A stretch of DNA of 34,740 nucleotides from positions 1 through 34,740 of the forward strand of contig CAJXNS010000015.1 in assembly GCA_913057165.1 (NCBI GenBank). Direction: 5' to 3'. The notes beneath the pieces were generated by a model. It made no database searches. It was not told the DNA's origin and worked only from the letters and a program-made list of their open reading frames with translations. Of the stretch, positions 6,853-34,740 are shown in pieces (positions within the stretch are counted from its first letter, which is position 1; each line of letters opens with the position of its first letter). The stretch comes from an uncultured Trueperaceae bacterium (GTDB taxonomy: Bacteria > Deinococcota > Deinococci > Deinococcales > Trueperaceae). Position numbers and translations under genes: made by a program.

Positions 6853-6879
6853 ACCGTCTTGCTCTTGAAAGGAGTCCGT

Positions 6880-7110: not shown

Positions 7111-7121
7111 GGAGTCCTGAC

Positions 7122-14193: not shown

Positions 14194-14285
14194 AGCTATA
14201 TGAAAGAATGCGGTTTAGCACACACATTATGCGCTGAGGGCGCGCCGAAATGCCGTTTGTCTCAGCCTGCCGATCGTTAGATGTT

Positions 14286-14315: not shown

Positions 14316-14401
14316 GAAACATGCAGGTGCATTTAAATACGCCCGATCGACGCGTTCACGTGAATTGAGCGGGACGTCCTGCATCCATAAAGGAGGTTGA
14401 C

Positions 14402-15697: not shown

Positions 15698-15728
15698 GCC
15701 ATTCCACGCAAGGAAGGCCAGGCCCGCT

Positions 15729-16658: not shown

Positions 16659-16660
16659 CC

Positions 16661-17509: not shown

Positions 17510-17521
17510 AAAGGAGAGACC

Positions 17522-18562: not shown

Positions 18563-19356
18563 GCGTGCATCTAGCGGACCTCAAATGGAAAGACGTGCAA
18601 GCCCTGGTTCGTGAAGATCCCGTAGCGGTCGTCCCGATCGGCGCGTTTGAGCAACACGGCCATCATTTGCCGCTTCGTGTTGACGCGTTTCTATGCGGTG
18701 AGGTGGCCCGCCGCAGCGTCGAAGATGCGGCGTCACGGGGGGCGAAAGCGGTGGTCACGCCCACCGTATGGACCGGCTACTCCCCACATCACATGGACTT
18801 CCCTGGCACCGTCACCCTAGACGCAGAGACGTTCATGTCGCTTGTCATGCACGTCGCTCGCAGTCTGCACGCGCACGGTTTCAGAAAAATCCTGCTGCTC
18901 AACGGCCATGGGGGCAACATGAACCTCTTAAAGACCGTCGTGCAGAGGCTGCGCTTTGAGCACGATGTCGACGTCGCAGCCGCCAGCTACTGGGACTTCG
19001 CGTTGGACACCATCGCTTCATGGCGCCAGTCAGACGTGGGCGGCATCAACCATGCTGGAGAAATGGAAACCGCACTGATGTTGGCGCTTGATCCAGACGC
19101 CGTTGATGAAACGGCGCGGGAGGACTTGTACCTTGAGCGTCGCCGCCACCTACCAGCAGATCTCGCCGTCGGCGGTCCCGTGACGCGCGCCGCGACGTTT
19201 GCTGAACTGAGTTCGCACGGTGCCATTGGAGCGCCTACCTTGGCAACACCTGAGCGCGGCCAAGAGCTCCTCAAAGCCATGGTGGAGGCTGTTTCAACGT
19301 TCGTCCAAGACTTTGCTGGTTGGACCAATCGCACGAAAGGAGATGGATCCGCATGA
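18559..19356 (+). CDS. Creatininase-family metal-dependent amidohydrolase
   Basis: Member of the creatininase family (creatinine amidohydrolase, FAPy deformylase ArfB, mycofactocin MftE), 265 residues. Family metal ligands are in place: E31 and H33 in GAFEQHGHHLP, D42 in RVDAF, H117 in LNGHGGN and E168 in NHAGEMETALML. The segment PTVWTGYSPHHMDFPGTVTL also matches. These enzymes hydrolyse cyclic or formyl amides using two metal ions in the cytoplasm. It is coupled by 4-base overlaps to the genes on both sides. The presence of this enzyme in an ABC importer operon points to a lactam- or amide-bearing substrate, not necessarily creatinine. Confidence 0.92.
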   Translation: MSVHLADLKWKDVQALVREDPVAVVPIGAFEQHGHHLPLRVDAFLCGEVARRSVEDAASRGAKAVVTPTVWTGYSPHHMDFPGTVTLDAETFMSLVMHVARSLHAHGFRKILLLNGHGGNMNLLKTVVQRLRFEHDVDVAAASYWDFALDTIASWRQSDVGGINHAGEMETALMLALDPDAVDETAREDLYLERRRHLPADLAVGGPVTRAATFAELSSHGAIGAPTLATPERGQELLKAMVEAVSTFVQDFAGWTNRTKGDGSA

Positions 19357-20573
19357 GCGCACACCAGAATCTTGCACGGGGGATGTACGCCTACCCGTGG
19401 GACTTCATTGATGAAGGCATTGACACCGTCCTAGACGCGATTCAAGGACGAGGGGGTTTGGACACGGTGTACGTGACCACGTGGTACCACTCCGGGATGT
19501 TCTTTCTGCCGCACAACCCCAATCGCAAGGTGCACTTCCCTGAGCCGGGCGCGCTTTATTTTGAACCTTCCGGGTGGCATGGGGATTCCAAACTGACCCC
19601 TGCGGTGTCTAAGCTGCATGATGACTGGGGCGCCTTCTGGAAGGAGCTGCGTGCCGCCTGCGATGCGCGCGGTATGCAGCTCAGCGCCTGGATGCCGGTG
19701 CTACATAACACCGGACTAGGGAGCCGGCACCCGGAGCGAACCGTGACCAACGCTTGGGGTGACCCGATCATCCACAGCCTCTGCGCTAGCCATACAGAAG
19801 TCCAAGACGTGGTGACGAATGTGGTGCGGGACGTGGCCAACTTAGGGGTGTTTGACCGTATCCTGCTGGAGTCCATCGAATACCTTCCGCTCCAGCACGG
19901 TTTTCACCACGAAGTCATCGGGTTGCCCATCGACCCAGAAGTTGCTTTCGCCACCAGCCTGTGCTTCTGTTCCGCTTGCCAAGCCCGCGGTGAGGGGATC
20001 GGCATTGATGTGGAAGGGCTCAAGGGTTGGGTTCGAGACGCCACCCAACCCGCGTTTGACGGTAAGCCTCATCAAATCCCAAGTTCGCTTGAGGCATTCC
20101 GCGAGATTCAAGCGGGTGCGATGGGTCGCTACCTTGACCTGCGAGCAGAATCACTCACCAATGTGCTGCGCCTGAGCGGCGAAACGTTACCGAACGACGG
20201 TCCGCGCTTGGCCATCCTCGATTTTGGTCCTCTTTACCCACTGGGTCAGTTCGATGGCGTTTGGCAGAGCGGTGTGGATCTTGCCGCGCAAGGCGCCTTG
20301 GTTGATGAGATCCACCCAACCTTCTACTTTGACGATTTAGGTGTACTTGAGAACAAAGTGCGTGCTTACAAGGATGCCTTGCATCATACGGATGCGGTGG
20401 TTGTGCCAACGTTGCGGGCCATCGCCCCTCAGGTTGATGGTCCTGCGTCACTCGACGCCCAAGTCGCCGCAGTCTCAGGATTGGGAGACGGTATGTCTTT
20501 TTACAACTACAGTTTTATGCGACTTGAGACGCTTGATTGGATTCGAACTTCGGTGCAGGAGCGGTTGTCATGA
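19353..20573 (+). CDS. Uncharacterised protein, probable TIM-barrel hydrolase
   Basis: A 406-residue protein I cannot place in a characterised family. Successive strand-like segments (TVYVTTWYHSG about 38-48, MQLSAWMPVLHNT about 108-120, RILLESIEYLPL about 169-180, RLAILDFGPLYP about 285-296, MSFYNYSFM about 381-389) suggest a TIM barrel like those of glycoside-hydrolase-like proteins. E173 in LLESIEY lies where barrel hydrolases carry a catalytic acid. A C-x-C-x2-C cluster (C204, C206, C209 in SLCFCSACQ) is unusual and could bind zinc. No signal peptide. ATG 19353 is chosen: it overlaps the creatininase stop and follows AAAGGAG (19336-19342). The operon context implies action on the imported compound. 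Confidence 0.75.
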   Translation: MSAHQNLARGMYAYPWDFIDEGIDTVLDAIQGRGGLDTVYVTTWYHSGMFFLPHNPNRKVHFPEPGALYFEPSGWHGDSKLTPAVSKLHDDWGAFWKELRAACDARGMQLSAWMPVLHNTGLGSRHPERTVTNAWGDPIIHSLCASHTEVQDVVTNVVRDVANLGVFDRILLESIEYLPLQHGFHHEVIGLPIDPEVAFATSLCFCSACQARGEGIGIDVEGLKGWVRDATQPAFDGKPHQIPSSLEAFREIQAGAMGRYLDLRAESLTNVLRLSGETLPNDGPRLAILDFGPLYPLGQFDGVWQSGVDLAAQGALVDEIHPTFYFDDLGVLENKVRAYKDALHHTDAVVVPTLRAIAPQVDGPASLDAQVAAVSGLGDGMSFYNYSFMRLETLDWIRTSVQERLS

Positions 20574-21319
20574 AGCCAAGCGTCGACGTCATCATCAAAC
20601 CGGTGTGCCTTCGGTTTCGCTATCACGAAGACGAAATCGTCTACATGTTCGCCGGACACGCGGACGCGCAGCTTGACGCCATGGAACGCATGCTAGGGGT
20701 CGACCCAAATCGCGACCAGCTGTTTGACGCGAACGTCGGTTTTCTTCCCGTCGCGAGTACGGTGCTGATTCGGGGCAAAAAAACGATTCTGGTTGATCCA
20801 GGCAACCATCACGTAGGTTTCTACGGCATGCTCGGCAACGCCCTGAAGGCGCACGGCAGTTCGTTTGACGAGGTGGACATGGTGGTGACCACGCATGCAC
20901 ATGCCGATCATGCCGCCAACGTCACGATGCTTCGCGGGCGGCCTTGGGTCATGGGTGAAGGTGAGTACGCCGTGCACGAGATCCTCGAGGGTGAAGGTGT
21001 CGCACGCGAACGACGCGCCCTGATGGGTCAAGTGCATGAAATTCCGTCCGAGGGCACACACGAGCTGATGCCGGGCGTCAGCGCAGTATTTACGCCCGGT
21101 CACTCACCCGGACACATTTCACTTCTGGTGGATTCCGACCGAGGCAGGGTGTTGATCGCAGGTGACCAGACGATGACGGAAAACGAATTTCGTACGGGTC
21201 GCTTTTCGCACTGGTACTCCGACGAGCAACGCGCCCAACTCGAAGCATCCCTCGAGCGCGTGAAGGCGTGGAAACCCGACATTGTCATTCCTGGCCATGA
21301 CCGGGAGTTTGAGATTTAG
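20570..21319 (+). CDS. MBL-fold metallo-hydrolase
   Basis: Metallo-beta-lactamase-fold hydrolase of 249 residues. The di-metal motif THAHADHAAN gives H109, H111, D113 and H114; further ligands are H178 (FTPGHSPGH), D199 (LIAGDQ) and H243 (IPGHD). The order matches lactonase/glyoxalase-type members rather than true beta-lactamases. No signal peptide is present. The ATG at 20570 overlaps the previous stop (ATGA); a longer reading would intrude far into that gene. It is the last gene of the seven-gene operon and could open a lactone or ester made by the upstream dehydrogenase; that role is inference. A strong hairpin follows nine bases after the stop. Confidence 0.92.
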   Translation: MKPSVDVIIKPVCLRFRYHEDEIVYMFAGHADAQLDAMERMLGVDPNRDQLFDANVGFLPVASTVLIRGKKTILVDPGNHHVGFYGMLGNALKAHGSSFDEVDMVVTTHAHADHAANVTMLRGRPWVMGEGEYAVHEILEGEGVARERRALMGQVHEIPSEGTHELMPGVSAVFTPGHSPGHISLLVDSDRGRVLIAGDQTMTENEFRTGRFSHWYSDEQRAQLEASLERVKAWKPDIVIPGHDREFEI

Positions 21320-21327
21320 TCGCCTCT

Positions 21328-21357
21328 CCAGGCTTGGCCATCGTCGCCCAAGCCTGG
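21328..21357. terminator. Bidirectional terminator hairpin
   Basis: CCAGGCTTGG (21328-21337) and CCAAGCCTGG (21348-21357) form a perfect 10-bp stem with a 10-base loop in the 45-base gap between two convergent operons. No long U-run on either side, but position and stem strength fit a shared terminator. Confidence 0.75.
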
Positions 21358-21364
21358 TCAACAC

Positions 21365-22213
21365 TTAGTCCGTAAATGGGGTGGTCAGTCGGCCAAGATC
21401 GCCGATTTCGACGGTGTATGTATCCCCTGGCCTGACCCAAGTTTGGGGATCCATCCCCAAGACGACACCCTCTGGGGTGCCGGTACAGACCACGTCACCA
21501 GGCTCAAGCGTCATGAACCGGGAAACGTAGGCAATGATCTCCTGAACGGAGAAGATCAGGTCGGATGTGTTGCTGTCCTGCCGCAACTCATCGTTAAGCC
21601 AGCCGCGTACCCGCAAGTTTGAGGGGTCGCCGACCTCTTGGGCGGACACCAATGACGGCCCCATGGGCAGAAACCCATCGAGCGTCTTGCCGATCAGCCA
21701 CTGACCGCTACGCATCTGCAGCGCCCGTTCGGAAACATCGTTGGCGTTGGTGTAGCCGAGGACGGTGGAAAGCGCATCGCCCTCGCGAACGTTGGCCGCC
21801 TTTTCACCCATCACGAAAGCCAGTTCCGCCTCGTAATCAACCTTCTCAAGGCCACCGATTCGCACCGGTTCGTTCGGTGCCGCAATCGTGTTGCCGTATT
21901 TGCTGAAGACAATGGGTTCCTCGGGGATGGCCATTCCGCTCTCAACAGCGTGCTTGCGGTAGTTAAGTCCAATGCACACGATTTTGCCGGGCGCCGGCAC
22001 GGGCGGCGCCAATTGCACGTCGGCGCCTAAGGGTGCGCGGCCTTCTTTGTCGATGGCGGTCCACGCTCGATGCAGGTCATCCCAGAGGGCGTGCCCACGC
22101 TTCAAGAGTTGCGTGGGTTCAGCGTCAATGAACGGCCTGAGGTCATACAGGTGGCCGGCATGCTCCAACGCGGGAGCGTGCTGACCGCTGACGTTCACGG
22201 TGGTGTACCTCAT
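21365..22213 (-). CDS. Fumarylacetoacetate hydrolase (FAH)-family protein
   Basis: FAH-family enzyme of 282 residues, which hydrolyses, decarboxylates or hydrates 2-keto-type acids using Mg2+. Metal ligands are E128 and E130 in VDYEAELAFVMG and D159 in TNANDVS; K176 in LIGKTLDGF is also conserved. The lead-in PGKIVCIGLNYRKHAVE and the closing DVVCTGTPEGVVLGM are typical. An AAGGAGAGGAC ribosome site covers the end of the upstream M81 gene. This is the last gene of a three-gene leftward operon. In sugar-acid pathways such proteins act on 2-keto-3-deoxy acids or diketo acids, which would fit a late step in this cluster. Confidence 0.92.
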   Translation of the reverse strand: MRYTTVNVSGQHAPALEHAGHLYDLRPFIDAEPTQLLKRGHALWDDLHRAWTAIDKEGRAPLGADVQLAPPVPAPGKIVCIGLNYRKHAVESGMAIPEEPIVFSKYGNTIAAPNEPVRIGGLEKVDYEAELAFVMGEKAANVREGDALSTVLGYTNANDVSERALQMRSGQWLIGKTLDGFLPMGPSLVSAQEVGDPSNLRVRGWLNDELRQDSNTSDLIFSVQEIIAYVSRFMTLEPGDVVCTGTPEGVVLGMDPQTWVRPGDTYTVEIGDLGRLTTPFTD

Positions 22214-22216
22214 GAT

Positions 22217-23740
22217 TTAGTCCTCTCCTTGCGCACGGTCTCGGGAAACGCGGTGGTTATGTGGCACGTGACGGAACGGCACGCTTGTCAGATCGGCGGG
22301 GCATGGTCCAGGCGTTGCAACCCAGTACTGGGCGGCGGCAATGGGATCATAGGCACGGCGGTGTGCGACCGCGGCCTTGACGACAATCAGTTCATAGTCG
22401 GTCGGTTCAATGCCTTGGCTACGGAACTGCCCCAAGTCAAAGGGAGCGGTTTTGCGTGTGGTGAGTAGAAGGGTGATACCGCGATGTTGGACCACCGCAG
22501 TAGGCCCCATGTTGACGTGAATACCGCCCATAGAGGCCATGTGGCTGTGGCGGTCTTCTAGTTCGAAACGTCCGTCCGAGCGGCTTAGGATTTCGACGTC
22601 TAGTTCTACGGGACCCTCATCAAATTGGCTTCCTTTGCCACCGATGGCGAGGCTGACCGTGTCGCCCAAATGGGCTTGTTCGCATACTTGAACGGCGGCT
22701 GGATCGTTCATTGCGATCAGCGCCGATGGGACATCGGCGTCAAGCAAAGCACGCAACGCGCCGGTCGCGTCGCCGGGAGCGCCACCACCGATATTGTCAG
22801 CAGATTCCACCAACAGCACGGGCGAATCTGAGACGGGCAGGACGTCTTGTACGACCTCGGCCACGGGTCGGTCGGTACGAAAGCCAAGCGGTCTGACGCG
22901 TTCTGCCAGTTCGGCAAGCTGCTGAAGGGCTTCGTTGGCGCTCTGCTGACCTGCTTCGCTTGGTTCGGCAACGCACATCAACGACAGGCCAGCCACGGGC
23001 GTGTCGGCGTAAGCGAACCCAGGCACGATACTGAGTGCCCAAATGGCGTCGCTTTGGGCTTCCAGTTCTCGTGCTTTGGCTTCGAGGGTTCGCATGGGAT
23101 CGTCGTCGGTTCCCGTGCCGATGGGCGGCCAGACCGTTGCCTCCTTGCGTAGCATCAGGCGGGGCGTTACGTCGTGACGCAGGCTTCGCGCCAGCAGCTC
23201 AGCGGCCCGGACGGCACTCTCGTGGGCGTCGGTATGAGGGTTGAAGCGGTAGCCAACCAGACAGTCAGCTGAGGCGACCGTCCGCTCGTCAAGGTTGGCG
23301 TGCAGATCAAAAACACCAAAAATGGGTGGCCGCAGGCTGCTGAGTTCCGATGCGATCATCTGCAATACGTCGGCCTCCACATCAAGCCGTGACTCGCTGA
23401 CCATGGCGCCATGAAGCACGAGAAAAATGGCGTCAAGAGGGGCTTCGCGGGTGGCTTCGTGGAGATGCCGCTTCAGAGCCGCAAGGTACGTATCGACCAC
23501 ATCGTCGGCCACCATGGCGCTGGGGGAAGCGCGGAAGTCTACAGCGGGTATGACGTCCCAGTCGCCTTGTTGGTCCGCGACCTCTAAGAATCCTGCAAGT
23601 GGCGAGCCGTCACCGGAGCTGGTGAGCAGTTCCGACCCTTCGCGTTTTTGAAAGTCCTCTAGCGTGGTGAGACCATCAAGAAGCGTGTTGGTCTCGTGAT
23701 AGAGGCCCGCAAGAAGGATGCGTTTCCGCGCTTTCGTCAC
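22217..23740 (-). CDS. M81-family metallopeptidase (microcystinase MlrC-like)
   Basis: Zinc metalloprotein of 507 residues related to MlrC, the enzyme that cleaves linear microcystin products. An N-terminal DUF1485-type domain begins RILLAGLYHETNT (H15). The metal site is suggested by VLHGAMV (H110), FDLHAN (D145, H147) and FNPHTD (H169); the C-terminal domain (about 300-500) has LLVESADNIGGGAPGD. No signal peptide. It begins at GTG 23740, overlapping the aminotransferase stop. Most M81 proteins outside cyanotoxin degraders have no known substrate, and they often lie in ABC importer clusters such as this one, so an amide or peptide-like bond in the imported compound is a reasonable guess. Confidence 0.9.
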   Translation of the reverse strand: MTKARKRILLAGLYHETNTLLDGLTTLEDFQKREGSELLTSSGDGSPLAGFLEVADQQGDWDVIPAVDFRASPSAMVADDVVDTYLAALKRHLHEATREAPLDAIFLVLHGAMVSESRLDVEADVLQMIASELSSLRPPIFGVFDLHANLDERTVASADCLVGYRFNPHTDAHESAVRAAELLARSLRHDVTPRLMLRKEATVWPPIGTGTDDDPMRTLEAKARELEAQSDAIWALSIVPGFAYADTPVAGLSLMCVAEPSEAGQQSANEALQQLAELAERVRPLGFRTDRPVAEVVQDVLPVSDSPVLLVESADNIGGGAPGDATGALRALLDADVPSALIAMNDPAAVQVCEQAHLGDTVSLAIGGKGSQFDEGPVELDVEILSRSDGRFELEDRHSHMASMGGIHVNMGPTAVVQHRGITLLLTTRKTAPFDLGQFRSQGIEPTDYELIVVKAAVAHRRAYDPIAAAQYWVATPGPCPADLTSVPFRHVPHNHRVSRDRAQGED

Positions 23741-25050
23741 GACGGCGTCTGCATCTCCTTCAGGGTGGAGGCGGCAGCATCAACCACTTGATCCAAGTGC
23801 TCCGCCGTGTGCGCTGCTGAGACGTACCAAAGGCCGCGACCGATCACGCGAACGCCTCGGTCTGCCAGCCCGCGCACAAAGCGTCCGTACTTTTCGGTGT
23901 CGTAGCGGAGGACGTCACGGTACTCGCGGACCGGTCCAGGCTCCTTCAGAAATCCGGCATGGAACATCGGCCCAGGCCCTTGGACATGCCATTGGTTATC
24001 GATGGTTGACAGGGCCTGCAGGCGATCACGCAGGGTTTGGCCGGTCTTGACGATTTGGTGGTGCGTCGCTTCGTCGTTTTCTAGCAAGATGCTGAGGGTG
24101 CTCAGCGCCGCGGCCACGCAGATGTTGTTGCTGTTGAGTGTGCCGGCGTGGAAGACATCGTTTGATTCAATCGCGTCAAAGTAGCGGGCCTTGCCGACAA
24201 GGGCACTGATTGGAAGGCCTGATCCGAGTGCTTTGCCGAACACCGCAAGGTCGGGTGTCACACCGTAGTGGCGTTGTGCTCCCCCAACGTTGATACGAAA
24301 CCCCGTAATAATTTCATCGAAAATGAGGGCAGCATCGTGCTCATCACAGATGTTGCGCAGGCCCTGTAAGAATCCAGGCTGCGGTTCGATGCAGCCTTGG
24401 TTGCACATGACAGGTTCCGTGATGACGGCGGCAATATCGTCTCGATGTCGAACAAATGCGCGTTCAACGGCGTCAATGTCGTTCCATGGCAACACAATGA
24501 GATGATCGCCGCTGCCATCGGGCAGACCGCCGCTCCACGGAACGCGGTTAGGGTTCGCGCGGTCACCAAGTTGGTCAGCCGTTGGGTTCACGCTGTAGGC
24601 GACTTCATCAAACCAACCGTGATAATGACCTTCAAACTTGATGATTTTTTGCTTTTTTGTGGCGTGCCGCGCCATGCGAATCACGGCGTGATCGGCTTCG
24701 GATCCCGTGGAACTGAAGCGAATGCGCTCTGCTGAAGGAATGGTTTCGCACAGCATCTCGGCCAGGAGCACCTCTTGTTCGTGCTGCCCAGCAAACAGTT
24801 GGCCTCGGCTCATGGCGTCTTGAATGGCATCAAGGACGCGTGGCTCGGAATGCCCCAGGATCATGGGGCCTTGGGCTAAGGTGAAATCCAGGAGTTTATT
24901 TCCATCAACGTCCCACAGCCAGGGCCCCTCGGCGCGTTCGTAGAACATGGGGTGCGGCTTGGCCACGCGAAACTGGCTGCTCACGCCAGCCGAAAGGCTT
25001 TTTTTCGCTCGCTCGTACCAGGCCTTAGATGTGTCATAGCTGCGCTTCAT
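23737..25050 (-). CDS. Class III PLP-dependent aminotransferase
   Basis: Aminotransferase of 437 residues resembling glutamate-1-semialdehyde aminomutase and omega-aminotransferases. K273 (FGKALGSGLP) would hold PLP, D245 (LIFDEIITGF) contacts the ring nitrogen, and STGSEADHAVIRMAR (about 114-128) binds the phosphate. HYHGWFDE is typical of GSAM-like members. ATG 25050 (MKRSYDTSKAWYERAKK) is chosen because it gives the normal family N-terminus and has AGGGAGG upstream (spacing about 12); an in-frame ATG at 25137 would add 29 low-complexity residues. It heads the leftward operon with M81 and FAH genes. It is unlikely to be hemL because its setting is catabolic. Confidence 0.92.
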   Translation of the reverse strand: MKRSYDTSKAWYERAKKSLSAGVSSQFRVAKPHPMFYERAEGPWLWDVDGNKLLDFTLAQGPMILGHSEPRVLDAIQDAMSRGQLFAGQHEQEVLLAEMLCETIPSAERIRFSSTGSEADHAVIRMARHATKKQKIIKFEGHYHGWFDEVAYSVNPTADQLGDRANPNRVPWSGGLPDGSGDHLIVLPWNDIDAVERAFVRHRDDIAAVITEPVMCNQGCIEPQPGFLQGLRNICDEHDAALIFDEIITGFRINVGGAQRHYGVTPDLAVFGKALGSGLPISALVGKARYFDAIESNDVFHAGTLNSNNICVAAALSTLSILLENDEATHHQIVKTGQTLRDRLQALSTIDNQWHVQGPGPMFHAGFLKEPGPVREYRDVLRYDTEKYGRFVRGLADRGVRVIGRGLWYVSAAHTAEHLDQVVDAAASTLKEMQTPS

Positions 25051-25169
25051 CGGCTTTCGGAACCTCCCTGAGACGGTCGCTGCGGCGGGCGTTCGGCGGG
25101 GAGACCTTGACGTATCTTCAACCCCACCACCCGACACTTCCGTTCCGGCTAGTGAACTGACTGTTTCAA

Positions 25170-25882: not shown

Positions 25883-26803
25883 TCAAGTGTTGTACGCCAC
25901 GCGAAATCCTGCATGCTGGGTCGCGGTTTCTGCAGAGGCGTGACTGCGCGCCGCAGGCCGGTAGCGGTCGCAGTACGAGGCATGACAAAGGAACGATCCG
26001 CCCTTTTGGGTGCGCTCCTGCGGCCCGAGGTCGACGTCAAGACGGGCGTCGAAACGATCCTCGCACCACTCCCAGACGTTGCCGCACACCTCATACAGTC
26101 CGAAGCCGTTGGCTGGGAACGACCCGACGGGCGCAACACCGGAATAACCGTCCTCAGCAAGGTCCCTCGCCGGAAATTCACCTTGCCAGACGTTCATCAT
26201 GTGCTCCCCACCCGGCGTAAGGTCGTCACCCCAAGGAAAGCGCGCGCCGTCCAGTCCACCACGAGCGGCATACTCCCACTCGGCCTCGGTCGGCAGGCGA
26301 CCGCCCACCCAGCGCGCGAACGCTTGTGCGTCGTTCCAAGACACTTGCACCACTGGGTGGTCACCACGGTCCTTAAGATCCGAACCGGGTCCTTCTGGCG
26401 CACGCCAGCTTGCCCCCGGCACGTCGCGCCACCACGGCAACCCTGGCACAACCGCGCCTGCCTCCCCACCTGCTAAATGCGCGTAAAACACGAACGCGGA
26501 GCCGATCCGTTCGGCATCGGTGACGTACCCCGTCGCCTCCACGAACGCCGCGAAACGGTCGTTGGTGACGGCATACACGTCGATCCAGAACGGCTGCACG
26601 GTCGTCTGAACGGCTGGGCCTTCGCCGTCTTGGGGGAAGGTGGGCTGGTCGCTACCCATCATGAACGTCCCACCGGGCAGGCGTACCCGTCCTTGCGCAG
26701 GTGTTTCGCCCATGAGTCCTTGCGCCTGCTGGGCTGCTGGTTGCGGTTGATCGCTTGCGTGGGACCGACTCGGGCTACAGCACGGCCGGGCTCCCTGACT
26801 CAT
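25883..26803 (-). CDS. Formylglycine-generating enzyme (FGE, SUMF1-type)
   Basis: Copper-dependent oxidase that converts the active-site Cys of sulfatases to formylglycine, up to 306 residues. After about 38 non-conserved residues the FGE-sulfatase domain runs to the end, with RLPGGTFMMGSD, FWIDVYAVTNDRFAAFV, VSWNDAQAFARWVGGRLPTEAEWEYAARGG and GLYEVCGNVWEWCED. The catalytic pair is present: C273 and C278 in GGSFLCHASYCDRYRPAARS, which distinguishes true FGE from EgtB and other relatives. No signal peptide, so it acts in the cytoplasm. The ATG overlaps the ROK gene stop (ATGA); no ribosome site is seen, implying coupled translation. Its likely client is the CSPSR sulfatase at 33437. Confidence 0.93.
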   Translation of the reverse strand: MSQGARPCCSPSRSHASDQPQPAAQQAQGLMGETPAQGRVRLPGGTFMMGSDQPTFPQDGEGPAVQTTVQPFWIDVYAVTNDRFAAFVEATGYVTDAERIGSAFVFYAHLAGGEAGAVVPGLPWWRDVPGASWRAPEGPGSDLKDRGDHPVVQVSWNDAQAFARWVGGRLPTEAEWEYAARGGLDGARFPWGDDLTPGGEHMMNVWQGEFPARDLAEDGYSGVAPVGSFPANGFGLYEVCGNVWEWCEDRFDARLDVDLGPQERTQKGGSFLCHASYCDRYRPAARSHASAETATQHAGFRVAYNT

Positions 26804-27987
26804 GGGGAGGTGAGCAGGGGCTGCCGTTCGACGGCGCGGTCTAAGTGCGCCTGCAAAAACGCGCGTGTTGCTCCGACCGCCGTGCCGTTGGTGGCCGTCA
26901 CAGCGGCAGGCCTTACGGTGAGGTGGTTGTTGATCAAGTCTGGAAGGCGCGCGCGAACACCCTGCTCAATGCGGCTCACGATCCCCTTCGGAGCGCCGGC
27001 AAGGGCACCCCCAATCACCAGCACACCGGGTTGCAGCAGATGCACGAAGGAGGCGGCCTGTGCCGCCACGAGGTCGGTCATTTTGAAGGTCAGTTCGGCA
27101 GCGTCGAGTTCGCCTGCGTCGGCCTGCCTTAAGATGCCAGCAAAGTCAGCGCGTACCGCTTGTGGCGAACGCTTGGAAGCGGCATCCGGTCCTTCAGCAC
27201 GACGTTCTAGGTACGCCGCCACCAGGCCGTGGACTTGCAGCAGCGAGCGGTCTTGGGCGTTGGATCCCTCCGCCATGAGGGGCGGGGCCACCAGACCGGC
27301 GTTGCCAAAAGGTCCGGTGTACGGCGTGCCATCGATAAAGAAGGAGAATTTAAGCCCTTCGGCCAAACCGGCGTACGCATACGTGGCGGCATGCTCAGCG
27401 AGACCGAACTCTGCTGTGGCCAAGGCGTCCATATCGTTGATCACCAGCACCGGCAGGCCGGTTTGCTCAGCAAGGCGCTCGCGTAGCGGAAGGTTACGCC
27501 AACGCGGGACGCGACCGATCGCGACGATGGTGCCCGTCAGGGCGTCGATGAACCCTGGTGTGGCCACGCCAAGTCCGATGACATCCCGGCCAGGATGGTC
27601 GTGGCGGATGTGCCTAATGAAGTCGGCAACCTCGGCATAGACCGCTTCAGGTTCGAGGTCCACGAGACCGTCTGGCACCCTTTCTTCAACAACCTGGCCG
27701 TAAAGGTCGGTCGCGACGAGCCGCATGCCAGGGTGCGCAAGGTGCACACCAACGATCGTTTTGGTTGCACGGTTCAAGCCGAAAAGGTTGGCGGGCCGGC
27801 CGCCGGTGCCGTCTTCGCGGTCGACCACCGTAAGCCATCCGTCAGACTCGAGGTCGGCCATGGCCCTTCGCAGGGTCGGCAGGCTCGCGCCGGTGGCGGC
27901 GGTGAGGTCCGCCAGGCTGGCTGGCCGTGCGGCGAGGGTGCTGAGGATTGAGCGAGGCAAATCCACTGAAGGCTCCTGACGCGTCAT
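26800..27987 (-). CDS. ROK-family transcriptional regulator
   Basis: Sugar-responsive regulator of 395 residues. The N-terminal winged helix (about 10-65: DLPRSILSTLAARPASLADLTAATG, LRRAMADLESDGWL) precedes a ROK domain with TIVGVHLAHPGMRLVATDLYG, GLGVATPGFID and LVINDMDALATAEFG. The ROK zinc motif (CxCGxxGC) is absent: the region after GPFGNAGLVAPP has no cysteines. It is therefore a degenerate ROK domain used for sensing, not a sugar kinase. ATG 27987 is preferred; an in-frame TTG at 28050 would read through the promoter region. It is divergent from the sulfated-sugar operon and shares an mRNA with FGE, so it probably represses both. Confidence 0.9.
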   Translation of the reverse strand: MTRQEPSVDLPRSILSTLAARPASLADLTAATGASLPTLRRAMADLESDGWLTVVDREDGTGGRPANLFGLNRATKTIVGVHLAHPGMRLVATDLYGQVVEERVPDGLVDLEPEAVYAEVADFIRHIRHDHPGRDVIGLGVATPGFIDALTGTIVAIGRVPRWRNLPLRERLAEQTGLPVLVINDMDALATAEFGLAEHAATYAYAGLAEGLKFSFFIDGTPYTGPFGNAGLVAPPLMAEGSNAQDRSLLQVHGLVAAYLERRAEGPDAASKRSPQAVRADFAGILRQADAGELDAAELTFKMTDLVAAQAASFVHLLQPGVLVIGGALAGAPKGIVSRIEQGVRARLPDLINNHLTVRPAAVTATNGTAVGATRAFLQAHLDRAVERQPLLTSP

Positions 27988-28014
27988 CCTACTCGGGATG
28001 ACGCCAAGGCGTTC

Positions 28015-28043
28015 TTGACACCTTTTAGAAAGAATTATATAAA
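28015..28043 (+). promoter_or_regulatory. Sigma-70-type promoter of the PHP-ABC-sulfatase operon
   Basis: TTGACA (28015-28020) and TATAAA (28038-28043) with the ideal 17-base spacer. Transcription would start near 28050, giving a leader of about 43 bases with a CAGGAGG ribosome site. On the other strand TATAAT (28034-28039) could serve the ROK gene, so the two promoters overlap. Confidence 0.8.
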
Positions 28044-28045
28044 AG
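28022..28045. promoter_or_regulatory. Inverted repeat CTTTTA-N12-TAAAAG over the divergent promoters
   Basis: Perfect 6-base arms (28022-28027 and 28040-28045) flank the spacer and -10 of the rightward promoter. Its size and AT-rich nature fit operators of ROK repressors such as NagC/Mlc/XylR, and the ROK gene lies alongside. Confidence 0.55.
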
Positions 28046-28093
28046 ACCAATCATTTCAAGGGTTGACGCCCGTTTCATCAGGAGGCCCCACCG

Positions 28094-29602
28094 GTGGACC
28101 TACCCAGCTTTGAGCCGTTCGCCGCACGCTACGGCGACCTACACAACCACAACGACCTCAGCTACGGCTCTGGCACGCCGGAACAAGCCCTCGCCAACGC
28201 CAAAATGCAGTTGGACTTCGTCAGCCTCACGGTGCACGGCGCCTGGCCCGACGTCCCCACGAACGACCCCGACCTCAGCTACCTCGTGAAGTACCACGAG
28301 GACGGCTTCGTCAAAGCCCGCGAACGCTGGGCCGACTACCTTGCCTTCACCGAACGCGCCAACGAAGAAGGCACCTTCGTCACCGTGCCGTCGTTCGAAT
28401 GGCACTCCATGCGCTACGGCGATCATGTCGTCTACCTCCGCGACGGCCAAGGCAGCGACATTCTCAGCCCACCCGACCTGCAGGGCCTACGCGATGCACT
28501 CGCAGGACGCGGCGACGGCGTCATGCTCATCCCACACCACATCGGTTACGAACGCGGCTACCGCGGCATCGACTGGAATGCGTTTGACGCCCAACGATCA
28601 CCGGTGGTGGAAACCGTGTCGTTCCACGGCAGCGCCGAAAGTTGCGACGGCCCCGTGCCGTACCTACACGCCATGGGGCCACGCGACGCCACGGGTACCG
28701 CCCGCCACGGCTGGAAGATGGGCCACCGCTTCGGCATCATCGGGTCCACCGACCACCACGCCGCCATGCCTGGCGCCTACGGGTACGGCCGGCTGGGTGC
28801 CTGGATGACGGGCTTGAACCGTGACGCCCTGTGGGAAGCCCTTCAGGCACGCCGTACCTGGGCACTCACCGGCGACCGCATTGAGCTTGCCTTCGACGTC
28901 AACGGCGTCCCCATGGGCGGCGTGGCCGAACCGGCGGACGAACGCACCGTCGACGTGCACGTGCGCGGCGGCGACGGCATCGATTACGCGGAAATTCTTC
29001 ACAACGAACGTGTGGTTCACCGCGAGAACGTCTTCCCGCAACCGCAAACCACAGGCCGCGTCAAGGTGCACATTGAGGTTGGTTGGGGTGAACGGACACA
29101 CGCGACCGACTGGGATGTTGAACTCCGCATCGAAAACGGCGCCCTGGTCGGTGTCGAACCGCGCTTTCGCGGGCCGCTTCCGAGCACACCGCCGCGAGAG
29201 GGTGAATCGCACACCCCGAACAGCCTCACCCGTCCCGACCACGAGACCGTGCGGTTTACCAGCCAAACCTGGCCCAACCCGCACTCCAGCATCGCTGCCA
29301 GCGAAGGCGTCTGCCTTGAGATGGACGTAGACGACGCCACCGTTCTGCACGCCACGATCAACGGTGAGGCCGTGACCGTGCCCGTGCGCGAACTCGCTGA
29401 AGGTTCCAAAACCCATCACATCGCCGGGTTCGTGTCACCGGCGGTGCGCTTCCGGCGCGCAATTGCCGAATCCGAATTTGCCACCCGCTTCCGCTTCCGC
29501 CACCGCCCCGGCGCCGTTGAGCACGACCTCTACCGCGTCCGTGTGCGGCAACGCAACGATCAATGGGCCTGGAGTTCACCCGTCTGGGTGGGCCCAAGCT
29601 GA
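28094..29602 (+). CDS. PHP-domain (DUF3604-like) metal-dependent hydrolase
   Basis: A 502-residue cytoplasmic protein with a PHP-type metallophosphoesterase-like barrel. Metal-binding patterns are YGDLHNHND (D15, H17, H19), SLTVHGAWPD, PSFEWHSMRYGDHVVY, LIPHHIGYERGYRG and IIGSTDHHAAMPGAYG, in the order typical of PHP proteins and DUF3604-like relatives. The C-terminal 200 residues are beta-rich, probably a carbohydrate- or protein-contact domain. Starts at GTG 28094, after CAGGAGG. No signal peptide. It is the first gene of an operon for uptake of a sugar and its desulfation, but its reaction is unknown; phosphoester, sulfoester or lactone hydrolysis are all possible. Confidence 0.78.
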   Translation: MDLPSFEPFAARYGDLHNHNDLSYGSGTPEQALANAKMQLDFVSLTVHGAWPDVPTNDPDLSYLVKYHEDGFVKARERWADYLAFTERANEEGTFVTVPSFEWHSMRYGDHVVYLRDGQGSDILSPPDLQGLRDALAGRGDGVMLIPHHIGYERGYRGIDWNAFDAQRSPVVETVSFHGSAESCDGPVPYLHAMGPRDATGTARHGWKMGHRFGIIGSTDHHAAMPGAYGYGRLGAWMTGLNRDALWEALQARRTWALTGDRIELAFDVNGVPMGGVAEPADERTVDVHVRGGDGIDYAEILHNERVVHRENVFPQPQTTGRVKVHIEVGWGERTHATDWDVELRIENGALVGVEPRFRGPLPSTPPREGESHTPNSLTRPDHETVRFTSQTWPNPHSSIAASEGVCLEMDVDDATVLHATINGEAVTVPVRELAEGSKTHHIAGFVSPAVRFRRAIAESEFATRFRFRHRPGAVEHDLYRVRVRQRNDQWAWSSPVWVGPS

Positions 29603-29679
29603 CGCCCGGAAAGGAGTACCGACCCCCTCGCCCGTCCCTACACGTCTCTTGGGGCTACCCCCCACAAAGGAGTACACGT
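29603..29679 (+). repeat. Leader with two AAAGGAGTAC copies before the binding-protein gene
   Basis: AAAGGAGTAC occurs near 29610 and again at 29666-29675. Only the second is correctly placed for the ATG at 29680; the first has no start codon at a suitable distance. The 77 bases between the genes otherwise hold no gene. Confidence 0.5.
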
Positions 29680-30972
29680 ATGAAGACCTTCTGGACCGCC
29701 CTCGCCGCCTCCGCGCTGCTTAGCGCCGGCACGGCGTTTGCGCAATCGAACGACATCGACTGCATCACCGACGAGCCCGCAACGATCACGTACGTTGGTG
29801 ATCCGGTCGGCAACCTTGCGGACACCGAGCGCGAAACGATCGCTGCGTTCGAGGCCGCCTGCCCGAACATCACCGTGGAACGCATCGACGGCCCCGCGAG
29901 CACCAGCGACCTGCTCTCGAACTACCTCACCATGTTCGAAGCGCAAAGCGGTGACATTGACGTCATGCGCGTGGACGTCATCCAGCCTGGTGTCCTCAAG
30001 GACAACCTGCTGGACATCAAACCGTTCTTCACCCAAGAAGAACTGGACGCCCACTTCCCTGGCTACATCACCAACAACGAAGTCGGTGACGAAATGGTCG
30101 CCATCGCCTTCCGTCTCGGTGCCGGCATGCTGTACTACCGCACGGATCTCGTTGAAGAGTACGGCTTCGACGGTGCCCCCGCCACCTGGAGTGAGCTTGA
30201 AGAGATGGCGCAAGTCATCCAAGACGGCGAACGCGCCAAAGGCAACGACGACTTCTGGGGCTTCGTCTTCCAAGGCAACAACTACGAAGGCCTGACCTGT
30301 AACGCCCTCGAGTGGCAAATCAGCAACGGTGGCGGCGTGATCGTCAGCCCCGAAGGCGAAATCCAAGTCAACAACGACGCCACCATTGACGTGCTCGAGC
30401 AGGTCGCCGGCTGGGTCGGCACCATCAGCCCGCCTGGCGTCGTCGGTTACGCCGAAGAGGACGCCCGTGGCGTGTGGCACGCCGGTAACGCTGCGTTCAT
30501 GCGCAACTGGCCTTACGCGTACGCCACCACCCTCGAAAGTGAAGCCATCGACGGCAACTTCGAAGTGGTCGCCCTTCCCGCCGGCGACTCCGGTTCCTAC
30601 GCCGCCACGATGGGCGGTTGGAGCATCGGGGTGAACAAGTACAGCGAGTACCCTGAAGCGGCCGCTGCGTTCGCCAAGCACTTCGCGTCCTTTGAAGAGC
30701 AGAAGCGTCGCGCCATCAACAACGCCATCAACCCGACCATCGCCGCGCTCTACCAAGATGCCGACGTGATCGAAGCGGTGCCGTTCTTCGACGGTCTTGA
30801 CGCGGTCTTCCAAGGCGCCGCCCCGCGCCCCTCGACCGTGACCGGCGAGAAGTACAACCAAGTTTCGACCCTCTACTCGACCGCCGTCCACAACGTGCTG
30901 ACCGGTCAAGAGGACGCCGAAACCGCCATGGTGCTGCTCGAGCTTGACCTAGAAGCACTCCTCGGCAACTAA
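29680..30972 (+). CDS. ABC transporter sugar-binding protein
   Basis: Extracellular solute-binding protein family 1, 430 residues. A Sec signal peptide (MKTFWTALAASALLSAGTAFA, cleavage near AFA-QS at about 21-22) has no lipobox Cys. Mature features are ERETIAAFEAACPNITVE, IDVMRVDVIQPG, ATWSELEEMAQVI, AAFMRNWPYAYA and MGGWSIGVNK, typical of disaccharide-binding proteins such as those for trehalose or maltose. ATG 29680 follows AAAGGAG; an upstream in-frame start would overlap the PHP gene and split the signal peptide from the N-terminus. High Asp/Glu content may reflect the extracellular setting. The presumed ligand is a sulfated or otherwise modified sugar, judging by the sulfatase in the operon. 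Confidence 0.93.
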   Translation: MKTFWTALAASALLSAGTAFAQSNDIDCITDEPATITYVGDPVGNLADTERETIAAFEAACPNITVERIDGPASTSDLLSNYLTMFEAQSGDIDVMRVDVIQPGVLKDNLLDIKPFFTQEELDAHFPGYITNNEVGDEMVAIAFRLGAGMLYYRTDLVEEYGFDGAPATWSELEEMAQVIQDGERAKGNDDFWGFVFQGNNYEGLTCNALEWQISNGGGVIVSPEGEIQVNNDATIDVLEQVAGWVGTISPPGVVGYAEEDARGVWHAGNAAFMRNWPYAYATTLESEAIDGNFEVVALPAGDSGSYAATMGGWSIGVNKYSEYPEAAAAFAKHFASFEEQKRRAINNAINPTIAALYQDADVIEAVPFFDGLDAVFQGAAPRPSTVTGEKYNQVSTLYSTAVHNVLTGQEDAETAMVLLELDLEALLGN

Positions 30973-30988
30973 ACCTCTCGCCCTACCT

Positions 30989-31011
30989 GGGGGTGGGCAT
31001 CGCCCACCCCC
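30989..31011 (+). terminator. Strong stem-loop after the binding-protein gene (attenuating terminator)
   Basis: GGGGGTGGGC (30989-30998) and GCCCACCCCC (31002-31011) form a perfect 10-bp GC stem with an ATC loop, followed by CTATTTT. It lies 16 bases past the binding-protein stop and 25 before the permease start. Such internal hairpins let the binding protein be made in excess over the permeases. Confidence 0.75.
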
Positions 31012-31035
31012 GCTATTTTGCTTCTGGAGGCATTG

Positions 31036-32595
31036 ATGACCGAACCTGCGACCACCGCCACCCCGCCCTCGCTAAGCGCCAAGCTTCTTGGAGGGCTGTT
31101 GGCCGTTGCAGGCTTACTGGCCATCGCCTTATTGTTCGCCTCCATCGTCGCGCACCCCGATGTGCGTGCTGGCTTTGACGCCAGCCTGGGTGACGCGCGC
31201 CCATCTTGGGTGCTCGCCATCCTTGACCGTTTCGGCCTGCTTGTACCCGCCCTGGTCTTGGGGCTGGGCGGCGTGACCGTCCGGTTGGGTACCCAGGTTG
31301 CCCGCCGGCACGCCGGCGCCATTCGCCTCACCCGGGACGTCTCGCTTTGGGCTGCCCTGTTTGCCGGTGTGATCACCATCAGCCGGGCGCTGCAAGGCAC
31401 GCCGTGGGTGAACGCCGGCGGCGACTCCGTCGCGACCGGCCTTGCAGGCGGCGTCCTCGCCGCAGGCGCCCTGACGGTCTTTACCGTCATCCTGCGGGTT
31501 GCTTTGGCGCGTCTTGCAAGCGACCCCACGCTGCCAACCGAACCCCTGCCTGCGCGGGAGATGCGTTCGGCGTGGAACCTGCTCCTGCCAGCCCTGCTGA
31601 TCTTGGTGATGGTCGCCGCCCGCCCGCTTGAAGCCACGGTTGTGACCAGCCTGACCGACAAACGCTTCGCGAGCGACCAAGTACCCAACTTCGTGGGGTT
31701 CGCCAACTACCGCGACCTACTCACCGTCAAGCTCGACACGCTGGAATGCCGGCGTGATGACGCCGGCGCATGCGAGGTTGGCCGTGACGGCCAAACCCGC
31801 TGGGAGACCCTGCCGGTTGACACCCTGCGGGAGGGCTACCGGTCGGCCTACGTCATCAACCTGCCGCTGGTCATGCCCAACGACCGGGCCGTGTCCGTCA
31901 CCGCCTTAGACGCCAAATGGGTGCGCAGTATCTGGGTAACCATCGTGTTCACCGTCCTCAGCGTCTCAGGGGAACTGCTGCTCGGGTTGTTCATTGCCAT
32001 GACGGTGCACTCAAGCTTCCGGGGTCGTGGCGCCATGCGGGCGGTGATGCTCATCCCCTGGGCGATCCCCACGGTCGTCTCCGCACGCCTGTGGGAACTC
32101 ATGCTGAAAGACACCAGCGCTGGGGTGCTCAACAGCGCCTTACTGAACTTGAACCTGATCGACCGGCCGCTCGCGTGGCTTACGACCGCCTCGCTGCAAC
32201 TACCCAGCGTGATCATGATTGACGTTTGGAAGACCGCGCCGTTCATGGCGCTCCTTATCCTGGCTGGCCTGCAGACCATCCCTAAGGAACTGTACGAGTC
32301 TGCGAAAGTAGATGGCGCAACCCCCGTACGCGAGTTTTTCGCGATTACCCTGCCGCTGCTTAGGCCCGCGATCGGTGTCGCGCTGATCTTCCGCACGCTC
32401 GACGCGCTGCGGGTGTTCGACCTGTTCCAGGTGCTGCTCGGTCGGGCGCAACAAAGCATGAGCACCTACAACTTTGACGTCCTCATTAACGACCAGCAGG
32501 CCGGTTACGCCTCCGCGATCGGGGTGCTGATCTTCCTGCTCATCTTTGCGTTCGCACTCATGTACGTGCGCGTGTTGGGGGTGAACCGCGAATGA
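31036..32595 (+). CDS. ABC transporter permease, MalF type, with long N-terminal extension
   Basis: Inner-membrane permease of 519 residues, about 200 longer than a typical MalF/UgpA subunit. The first 170 residues hold about four extra hydrophobic segments (near 17-38, 66-84, 103-120, 130-155). A periplasmic insert follows (about 205-285) with two cysteines, ECRRDDAGAC, that could form a disulfide. The canonical transport core starts near WVTIVFTVLSVSGELLLG and ends with the EAA loop LYESAKVDGATPVREFF. ATG 31036 follows TGGAGG; an upstream in-frame reading would add only six residues. The stop overlaps the next permease (ATGA). The extended N-terminus recalls the MalF of E. coli. Confidence 0.9.
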   Translation: MTEPATTATPPSLSAKLLGGLLAVAGLLAIALLFASIVAHPDVRAGFDASLGDARPSWVLAILDRFGLLVPALVLGLGGVTVRLGTQVARRHAGAIRLTRDVSLWAALFAGVITISRALQGTPWVNAGGDSVATGLAGGVLAAGALTVFTVILRVALARLASDPTLPTEPLPAREMRSAWNLLLPALLILVMVAARPLEATVVTSLTDKRFASDQVPNFVGFANYRDLLTVKLDTLECRRDDAGACEVGRDGQTRWETLPVDTLREGYRSAYVINLPLVMPNDRAVSVTALDAKWVRSIWVTIVFTVLSVSGELLLGLFIAMTVHSSFRGRGAMRAVMLIPWAIPTVVSARLWELMLKDTSAGVLNSALLNLNLIDRPLAWLTTASLQLPSVIMIDVWKTAPFMALLILAGLQTIPKELYESAKVDGATPVREFFAITLPLLRPAIGVALIFRTLDALRVFDLFQVLLGRAQQSMSTYNFDVLINDQQAGYASAIGVLIFLLIFAFALMYVRVLGVNRE

Positions 32596-33440
32596 CCGGT
32601 AAACAGATTAAGCACGTCCTGCAACGCACCGGCTTTTATGTGCTCGTCCTGATCGTAGCCGCGTACGCCCTCATTCCGTTCGTGTGGGCGATCTCCACCA
32701 GCCTGAAAAGTGAAAGCGAACTGTTCGGCTCGGCACGCCTCATCCCCCAAAACCCGTCGTTTGACAATTACGTAAACGTGCTGACGAGCGCAAGTTTCAT
32801 GGGTTCGCTTGGCAACTCGGTGATTGTCGCGGGTGGCAGCGCCATCTTGGCCCTGACGGCCGGATCGTTCGCGGCGTACGCCCTTGGGCGCCTACGGTTT
32901 CGTGGCAAGCAGACCATGCTGTACGCCGTGCTGGCCATGACGATGTTCCCGCAGATTTCGGTCCTCTCCGGCATGTACGAAAACGTCCGTAACCTCGGAA
33001 TTTTCGGGACGCAAGCCGCCATGCTGTACGCCTACCCGTTGTTCACACTGCCGTTCGCGGCGTGGGTGCTGACGTCGTTCTTCCGTGGTCTGCCGCGTGA
33101 GATCGAGGAAGCTGCCGTGGTGGATGGGGCGACCACCGCGCAGATTTTTGCGCGTATTCTGCTGCCCCTGACGGTCCCGGCGTTGGTCACGACCGGTTTG
33201 CTGACGTTTATCGTGTCTTGGAACGAGTACGTCTTCGCGCTCGCGTTCACGCTCACCAACCCATCCGCCCAAACCGTCCCGGTGGCGGTCGCGCAGTTTG
33301 CCGGGATTGTGGAGCAGCAGGAACCCATCGCTGAAATCATGGCGGCGGCGATTGTCGTCACCGTGCCACTCGTGGTGCTGGTGCTGATCTTCCAGCGCCG
33401 TATTGCCGCAGGCCTGACCGCTGGGTCGGTTAAAGGATGA
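32592..33440 (+). CDS. ABC transporter permease, MalG type
   Basis: Second permease of the importer, 282 residues, about six helices: an N-terminal helix (YVLVLIVAAYALIPFVWAIS, about 16-35), then SVIVAGGSAILALTAGSFAAY and MLYAYPLFTLPFAAWVL. The EAA loop reads IEEAAVVDGATTAQIFARI (about 175-193). It overlaps the preceding permease and the following sulfatase by four bases each (ATGA), so all three are translationally coupled. No ATPase is encoded nearby. Confidence 0.93.
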   Translation: MTGKQIKHVLQRTGFYVLVLIVAAYALIPFVWAISTSLKSESELFGSARLIPQNPSFDNYVNVLTSASFMGSLGNSVIVAGGSAILALTAGSFAAYALGRLRFRGKQTMLYAVLAMTMFPQISVLSGMYENVRNLGIFGTQAAMLYAYPLFTLPFAAWVLTSFFRGLPREIEEAAVVDGATTAQIFARILLPLTVPALVTTGLLTFIVSWNEYVFALAFTLTNPSAQTVPVAVAQFAGIVEQQEPIAEIMAAAIVVTVPLVVLVLIFQRRIAAGLTAGSVKG

Positions 33441-34740
33441 CGTCACGCCCACCCAACCTGTTGATGATCGACTGCCACGACCTGGGGCGGCACCTTGCCT
33501 GCTACGGCAACGATGCGGTTCCCAGCGACGCGATCGACGGGCTGGCTGCCGATGGCGTGCGTTTTACGCAGGCGTTCTGTACCGCCCCGCAGTGCTCCCC
33601 AAGTCGGGCGTCGCTCTACACGGGACGGCATGCGCACGATGTGGGCATGCTCGGGCTGGCGCACGCGCCCTTTAACTGGCGGCTGCAGCCGGACGCGCGT
33701 TATTTGGCGGGCGTCCTCAAGCAAGCCGGTTGGTCTACCCACCATGTGGGCGTTCAGCATGTGGCACCCGACGCCCCTGAGGAGGTTGCCGCCCTCGGGT
33801 TTGATTCCCATAGCGCTTCACACGCCCCTGCCGGCGATGTTGCCGATGCGGCCATTGCCGCACTCAACGCCGCGGAAGGGCCGTTCTTTTTGAACGTCGG
33901 CTTTGAAGAACCGCATCGCGATGCGAATGGGCGTTTCAAAGACCACCCGCCGTACGACGAGCGGGGGGTGAACATTCCGCCGTACCTACCGAACGAGCCT
34001 GAGGTGGCTAAAGAGCTGGCGGAACTTCAGGGCGCCATCTTTGCGATGGATCAGGCGGTCGGACGCATCCTTGACGCGCTCAATGCGCGAGACGACGCAG
34101 CCGACACGTGGGTGGTGTTCACCACCGATCACGGGCTCGCCATGCCGCGCGCCAAGGCAACGATGTACGACGCCGGTTTGGGTGTGGCGCTGATCATGCG
34201 CTGGCCGGCAGCCGGGTTGACCGGCGGGCGGACGCTTGAGCGCCTCACCAGCCATGTGGATATCGTCCCGACCTTGCTTGAAGGGCTCGGCGTACCGCAA
34301 CCGGACGGTCTGCACGGACGTAGCGCCTGGGGAGACCTCACGGGCGGACAGAGCCACGCGGCCGACCTTGTGTTCGCCGAGAAGACGTTCCACACGGCGT
34401 ACGAACCGATGCGCGCCGTACGCGACGGGCGTTACAAGCTGATCGCCAACCTGGAAGTCGACATCATGAACATTCCGGGTGACACGTTACGGAGTCCCAT
34501 CACGGCGTTGATGGTCGACGAAATTGCACAAGAACGTCCACCGCTCGAGCTTTACGATCTTGAGAACGACCCAGAAGAACGCGTCAACCTAGCAGGCGAC
34601 CCGACCTACGCAGCGGTGCGCCGGCGTCTCGCGGACGCTCTCACGGCGTGGATGCGTGACACGAACGATCCGGTCCTGCGTGGCCCCGTTGGCTCCCCGT
34701 ACCGGTCGGCTGCCCTCGCGTCGTTAGGACTTCAGGACTC
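33437..34740 (+). CDS. Type I sulfatase (SGSH-like), 3' end beyond window
   Basis: Formylglycine-dependent sulfatase; about 434 residues are visible and the reading frame is open at the right edge. C53 in the activation motif C-S-P-S-R (CTAPQCSPSRASLYTGRHAHD region, 48-68) is the residue modified by FGE. Metal ligands are D12 near the N-terminus (LLMIDCHD) and the TTDHG motif followed by PRAKATMYDAG, a combination like N-sulfoglucosamine sulfohydrolases (heparan N-sulfatase). The C-terminal LYDLENDPEERVNLAGDP is the usual sulfatase ending, so only a short tail is missing. No signal peptide, hence cytoplasmic. ATG 33437 overlaps the permease stop and follows AAAGG. It would remove sulfate from the imported sugar. 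Confidence 0.93.
   Translation, partial: MTSRPPNLLMIDCHDLGRHLACYGNDAVPSDAIDGLAADGVRFTQAFCTAPQCSPSRASLYTGRHAHDVGMLGLAHAPFNWRLQPDARYLAGVLKQAGWSTHHVGVQHVAPDAPEEVAALGFDSHSASHAPAGDVADAAIAALNAAEGPFFLNVGFEEPHRDANGRFKDHPPYDERGVNIPPYLPNEPEVAKELAELQGAIFAMDQAVGRILDALNARDDAADTWVVFTTDHGLAMPRAKATMYDAGLGVALIMRWPAAGLTGGRTLERLTSHVDIVPTLLEGLGVPQPDGLHGRSAWGDLTGGQSHAADLVFAEKTFHTAYEPMRAVRDGRYKLIANLEVDIMNIPGDTLRSPITALMVDEIAQERPPLELYDLENDPEERVNLAGDPTYAAVRRRLADALTAWMRDTNDPVLRGPVGSPYRSAALASLGLQD

Follow-up and report, generated by a model that had tools for sequence, protein, structure and literature searches.

The window examined here, 34,740 nucleotides long, is the complete contig CAJXNS010000015.1 (C15) of a metagenome-assembled genome (MAG) of 1.78 Mb and 95% completeness. 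Among named genomes, MAGs of Trueperaceae (Deinococcota) stand closest to this MAG. The window carries a divergent gene cluster built around a sulfatase, a sugar importer and a formylglycine-generating enzyme (FGE), the maturase of the sulfatase. The cluster probably serves the inducible breakdown of a sulfated alpha-glycoside, which would be imported intact, desulfated inside the cell and then split. Its anatomy and conservation, the missing signal peptides, the exchange of its maturase and the single-client status of the sulfatase (in the source genome and in genome G100) were read directly from the sequences.

Architecture and conservation of the locus

On the minus strand the FGE gene (25883..26803) and the gene of a ROK-family repressor (26800..27987) overlap by ATGA. 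Divergent from them, the plus strand encodes a PHP-type metallohydrolase (28094..29602), a solute-binding protein (29680..30972), two ATP-binding cassette (ABC) permeases (31018..32595 and 32592..33440) and the sulfatase (33437..34740). The initial annotation had described FGE and ROK as divergent from importer and sulfatase, with FGE cysteines C273/C278 and a sulfatase CSPSR motif at C53, and all of these were found intact. It had missed the PHP gene, the first of the plus arm, and the locus is bigger than it stated: the contig end cuts the sulfatase about 5 codons short of its expected stop, and the operon runs on into genes for a PfkB kinase and a glycoside hydrolase of family 4 (GH4). This continuation was seen on contig C93 (3.2 kb), where a sulfatase near-copy is followed by PfkB and then by an NAD-type GH4 glycosidase. 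Over their overlap the two sulfatase sequences share 88.7% DNA and 91.8% protein identity; C93 may stem from a strain variant binned with this genome, or it may be a second copy.

Relatives of the locus were accepted when a PHP profile match of more than about 700 bits had a ROK or sulfatase gene alongside. The locus is thereby found in 16 genomes including the window, 11 of Trueperaceae and 5 of Anaerolineae (Chloroflexota), several of them cut by contig ends. Relatives show the gene order in one piece, with ROK divergent from PHP, binding protein, permease 1, permease 2, sulfatase, PfkB and GH4. In the locus of G113 (L015 / L167) PfkB is largely lost and GH4 missing altogether, and the sulfatase motif reads CCPSR; the genome yielded no maturase, and the pathway there is possibly a decaying copy. 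No published description of the locus was found among open-licence papers.

The sulfatase, its location and its maturase

The sulfatase matches PF00884 (7e-35) and SGSH_C (3e-15), and with its C/S-x-P-x-R motif and alkaline-phosphatase-superfamily fold it belongs to the type I (formylglycine) sulfatases, S1. C53 and R57 are invariant across 13 aligned relatives, one with CCPSR and one with CSASR. The closest solved structure by sequence is human sulfamidase (141 bits). An AlphaFold2 (AF2) model (pLDDT 86, pTM 0.90) is nearest in fold to sulfamidase (TM 0.85), then to S1_8A/B/C. Its nearness to S1_8/SGSH members in sequence and predicted fold makes it a candidate member of SulfAtlas S1_8.

That the sulfatase lacks a signal peptide, as first annotated, was borne out for the window protein and for relatives in several phyla. 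An in-frame stop lies directly upstream and leaves ATG 33437 as the only possible start, so no export signal can be added by an earlier start, and export by that route was ruled out. In close relatives the first catalytic strand (PNLxxIDCHDLG) already lies at residues 2-10, with no room for a signal peptide, and a signal-less start is also found in 40-47% identical sulfatases of Deinococcus deserti, Streptomyces, Natrialba, Halocatena and Halomontanus.

The importer is of the CUT1 ABC sugar type. Its binding protein (PF01547 7e-27) carries the signal peptide MKTFWTALAASALLSAGTAFAQ and starts at about 29680, the longest open reading frame beginning at 29563. Permease 1 (525 aa, PF00528 3e-15) and permease 2 (PF00528 1e-14) have best models of MalF and MalG type, respectively, and the gene of permease 2 overlaps that of the sulfatase by 4 bp, confirming the overlap noted earlier. 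No ABC ATPase gene lies within the locus. The source genome holds one MalK-type ATPase, unlinked on contig C9, which would therefore be the shared energiser of the importer. Between the binding-protein and permease genes a hairpin with a T-rich tail (30988..31012, plus strand) could be of the attenuation or mRNA-stability type; it is a weak candidate, as such sites are no more frequent in the region than by chance.

Sequence features strongly favour desulfation after import: the sulfatase is signal-less, the binding protein has a signal peptide, and PfkB and GH4 depend on ATP and NAD. The earlier proposal of intact entry and desulfation inside is supported by the same evidence and by the overlap with the importer.

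FGE of the window (PF03781 5e-77) aligns full length with solved FGEs of the PDB (349 bits). Its cysteine pair, GGSFLC(273)HASYC(278), is intact and identifies it together with the domain as an FGE of SUMF1 type; conversion of cysteine to formylglycine is its predicted activity. That it has no signal peptide is unremarkable, as prokaryotic FGEs reside in the cytosol (PMC4505483). It is the sole PF03781 protein of the source genome, where PF00884 has three matches: the window sulfatase, the C93 copy and a distant protein (C68) that is a type-I phosphodiesterase. Other sulfatases as the true clients of FGE, an objection raised with the initial annotation, were thus rejected: the genome has one FGE and one sulfatase type. 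Similarly, in G100 (Trueperaceae, 100% complete) the locus sulfatase is the sole PF00884 protein and the sole radical-SAM anaerobic sulfatase-maturating enzyme (anSME) ends the same operon, following GH4 in a locus split over two contigs.

Two unrelated maturases are interchangeable at the locus, by lineage, as read from gene content. Among Trueperaceae with the locus, G000, G075, G081, G103, G105 and G106 have FGE without anSME, and G085, G086, G087 and G100 have anSME without FGE; the FGE query gave only weak hits in G086 (E 6e-7), which were attributed to other proteins of this domain family. Neither enzyme was found in G076 (85% complete), and the two occur together in none of the 11 genomes. 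With three FGE genera against two anSME genera this pattern is suggestive and not a statistic. Anaerolineae carriers G111, G112, G370 and G433 have anSME (the search for FGE did not extend to G370 and G433).

A maturase is linked to 6 of the 16 loci. Four genomes of two genera, that of the window and G103, G105 and G106, have FGE after ROK, and in G112 (L014; Anaerolineaceae) an anSME above the TIGR03942 cut-off occupies the slot after ROK. According to the initial annotation, translating the maturase from the mRNA of the repressor would tie maturation capacity to substrate. The recurrence of the linkage upholds part of this: besides FGE in two genera and anSME in that slot in another phylum, ROK, FGE, sulfatase and importer stand together in D. 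deserti and Streptomyces. The coupling itself stays a proposal; linkage is missing from most loci, and unlinked maturases showed no second operator. One could also regard the maturase as an accidental neighbour of ROK, outside its regulon, as the missing linkage in most loci, the absence of a second operator at unlinked maturases and the FGE-PsiE order kept in genus g1, as neighbours often are, would suggest. We consider this unlikely: two genera have FGE behind ROK, a second phylum has anSME in the equivalent position, G100 has anSME as the last gene of the operon, and D. deserti and Streptomyces share the grouping of ROK, FGE, sulfatase and importer.

The ROK protein has an N-terminal winged helix-turn-helix (residues 25-78) and a ROK domain (PF00480 2e-18), as expected of a ROK repressor. 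Orthologues 34-52% identical stand in the equivalent position in the 15 other loci. Its longest open reading frame starts at TTG 28050, and the alternative start ATG 27987 is more likely because a promoter/operator-like element occupies 28006..28055 (plus strand). In this element, TTGACA-CCTTTTAGAAAG-AATTATATAAAAG, a -35-like and a -10-like box flank an inverted repeat, CTTT-N3/4-AAAG. The order TTGAC(A), CTTT-N3/4-AAAG, TATA-like box, AAAG was found between the arms in 16/16 loci, some of them deviating by single bases; the centre forms a perfect palindrome, CTTTTATAAAAG, in G112. A standard sigma-70 scan detected no promoter in the region, as the -10 box is imperfect. When the element profile was run against all loci examined, nothing else scored below E of about 0.07, also upstream of unlinked maturases, and a second ROK operator at these genes was dropped. 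We infer that ROK represses both arms.

In the FGE sequence we also observed a CCSPSR stretch upstream of the catalytic domain (26764-26803, minus strand), which contains the CSPSR pentapeptide of its client sulfatase. A CC or CGC motif is present in 18/19 distinct sequences with the FGE cysteine pair (bacteria and haloarchaea, all scored by a single pattern), a count somewhat biased since part of the sample was chosen from matches whose alignment already spanned the motif, and in 1/5 FGE-domain proteins without the pair. It lies either N-terminally, about 160 residues before PTEAEW (CCSPSR, CCAPSR, CGCAPS), or in the loop before the active site (PCCIPSNPR). The plasmid FGE genes L198 and L203 have annotated starts downstream of an in-frame CC motif, and database FGEs may be N-terminally truncated. 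According to a review, only higher eukaryotes have the N-terminal extension with C50/C52 (PMC7279497). The motif may serve in copper handling or mimic the substrate.

Substrate and proposed pathway

The initial annotation had guessed at an N-sulfated or similar amino sugar. S1_8 enzymes act on 2-position O- or N-sulfates, and the binding protein and GH4 point to an alpha-glucoside. The binding protein is nearest to the PDB series 6j9w/6jai (377 bits), which we take to be a Thermus alpha-glycoside-binding protein, and then to maltose/trehalose and sulfoquinovosyl-glycerol binders. The C93 GH4 (PF02056/PF11975) aligns full length mainly with 6-phospho enzymes. Phospho-alpha-glycosidases of GH4 are marked by a Cys/His metal site, an NAD domain, a CD-x motif (CDMP in GlvA) and a TRA motif. 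The C93 enzyme is a candidate member: CDQ and GLNH are conserved where read, and CDQ stands where the alpha-phosphoglucosidase GlvA has CDM. These family relationships favour a 2-O-sulfated alpha-glucoside over an amino sugar. The initial interpretation as a whole is thus supported in part, with import before desulfation and the single client upheld, and the amino sugar and maturase coupling weakened.

The cited characterised S1_8 enzymes all act at position 2, on N-sulfoglucosamine, xylose-2-sulfate or galactose-2-sulfate (PMC12549532, PMC10154612). If the substrate were an N-sulfated glucosamine glycoside of heparan type and the sulfatase a true sulfamidase, the closeness of human sulfamidase in both sequence and fold would be accounted for. 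However, S1_8 also includes O-sulfatases for galactose-2-sulfate and xylose-2-sulfate (PMC12549532), the locus has no uronic acid, lyase, deacetylase or glucosamine-handling genes, the relatives of the binding protein and GH4 are glucoside-type, and several carriers are of soda-lake origin; a heparan-type substrate is accordingly improbable.

As to the carriers, those with CSSed in the record name come from Cock Soda Lake and those with GEM or PLM presumably from soda lakes too; marine and other carriers also exist. 2-Sulfotrehalose, which bears its sulfate on C2 of one of its glucose units, ranks among the major solutes in Natronococcus and Natronobacterium (PMC1224877); it has also been found in Natrialba magadii (PMC3403918). 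Plasmid pNMAG01 of N. magadii (L216 9001-12906) encodes a 40% identical signal-less sulfatase near an ADP-dependent glucokinase/phosphofructokinase gene. The leading candidate, put forward tentatively, is a dedicated 2-sulfotrehalose pathway with import of alpha-glycoside type, cytoplasmic 2-O-desulfation, and kinase and GH4 cleavage. If true, the locus would be a catabolic sink, or consumption route, for a soda-lake osmolyte of haloalkaliphilic archaea.

For the sulfated alpha-glycoside pathway in general we propose the following substrate, order of reactions and regulation. The binding protein and the two CUT1-type permeases, driven by the shared MalK-type ATPase, would import the sulfated sugar, judging from their families. 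The cytoplasmic sulfatase of the S1_8/SGSH group would remove the sulfate, most likely from position 2, and PfkB and the NAD-dependent GH4 of phospho-glycosidase type would process the desulfated glycoside. Since GH4 chemistry begins at C3/C2, a 2-sulfate probably must go first. ROK would bind the CTTT-N-AAAG inverted repeat between the arms until released by a pathway sugar. FGE, made from the repressor mRNA, would activate the sulfatase, and in other lineages anSME would replace it, sometimes in the same slot.

Several observations weigh against this pathway. The PHP enzyme has no step in it, and distant PHP paralogues occur also without sulfatases; PfkB and GH4 were read on the near-copy C93 and not on the window contig; 10/16 loci have no maturase in the stretch examined (several are truncated); and the element profiles of GC-rich Trueperaceae and of Chloroflexota do not cross-detect by E-value, with only G100 bridging them.

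The PHP protein is of CehA/McbA, DUF3604-like type (DUF3604 3e-5; NCBIfam CehA/McbA 9e-20), has no signal peptide and begins at a GTG preceded by AGGAGG. No solved relative was found by sequence; with Foldseek its AF2 model matched PHP phosphoesterases, including 2anu, and the fold points no further than PHP. Distant paralogues (36-41% identical; L060, L061, L064, L066, L067) also have sulfatase genes as neighbours, in some cases together with genes for ROK and ABC permeases, which suggests a wider PHP-sulfatase association.

Elsewhere on the contig are a rhodanese - sulphur transporter (Sulf_transp) - rhodanese set (4949-8027) and a separate cluster (13282-25137) of an IclR regulator, an ABC importer, a Gfo/Idh/MocA oxidoreductase, a creatininase-like protein, an FAA hydrolase, an M81 peptidase (MlrC-like) and a class III aminotransferase. 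Pseudomonas aeruginosa obtains sulfur through an arylsulfatase in the cytoplasm that is fed by an ABC importer. This precedent, and the sulphur transporter and rhodaneses at 5.0-8.0 kb, though 20 kb off, would fit a locus for scavenging sulfur from sulfate esters rather than for carbon use. The conserved core, with its ROK, PfkB and GH4 genes, speaks for sugar catabolism, and we regard sulfur scavenging as very unlikely.

Comparison with known systems

Other importer-fed cytoplasmic sulfatases are AtsA/AtsRBC of P. aeruginosa and the choline sulfatase BetC; unlike the window locus they serve sulfur or osmolyte supply, with no ROK-controlled sugar pathway. The nearest sulfatases by sequence and fold are those of S1_8 (SGSH; lambda-carrageenan S1_8A/B/C; Phep_2826). 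Those are exported or lysosomal, whereas the window clade is signal-less with an HDLG variant of the metal site. D. deserti plasmid 3 has an operon ROK-binding protein-permease-permease-sulfatase-DUF2270-FGE and Streptomyces sp. NBC_01727 one of binding protein-permease-permease-ATPase-sulfatase-ROK-FGE, the latter with a different importer type and its own ATPase. Their signal-less sulfatases are 44-47% identical to that of the window; unlike the window, both loci are without PHP, PfkB and GH4.

In the ats2 cluster of Bifidobacterium breve UCC2003 imported N-acetylglucosamine (GlcNAc)-6-sulfate is desulfated intracellularly (PMC7326374, PMC5144078). Like the window it combines a sugar transporter, an intracellular sulfatase (atsA2), a linked maturase (atsB2, an Fe-S oxidoreductase) and a NagC/XylR-type (ROK) regulator. 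It differs in acting on the monosaccharide 6-sulfo-GlcNAc with another sulfatase activity, in having only an anSME-type maturase, and in that no PHP-PfkB-GH4 set is reported; the S1_8-like fold of the window sulfatase argues for position 2, in contrast to the 6-sulfate of B. breve. B. breve thus already offers a case of import before desulfation in which a linked maturase is joined by a regulator of ROK type. New, as far as open papers show, are the gene set, the clade of cytoplasmic S1_8-like sulfatases and the exchange of FGE and anSME in one regulatory slot. The locus would give a case, conserved in two phyla, of desulfation only after import, with one sulfatase served by one maturase. As two unrelated maturases swap in one regulatory slot, the coupling of maturation to the sulfatase operon is directly testable.

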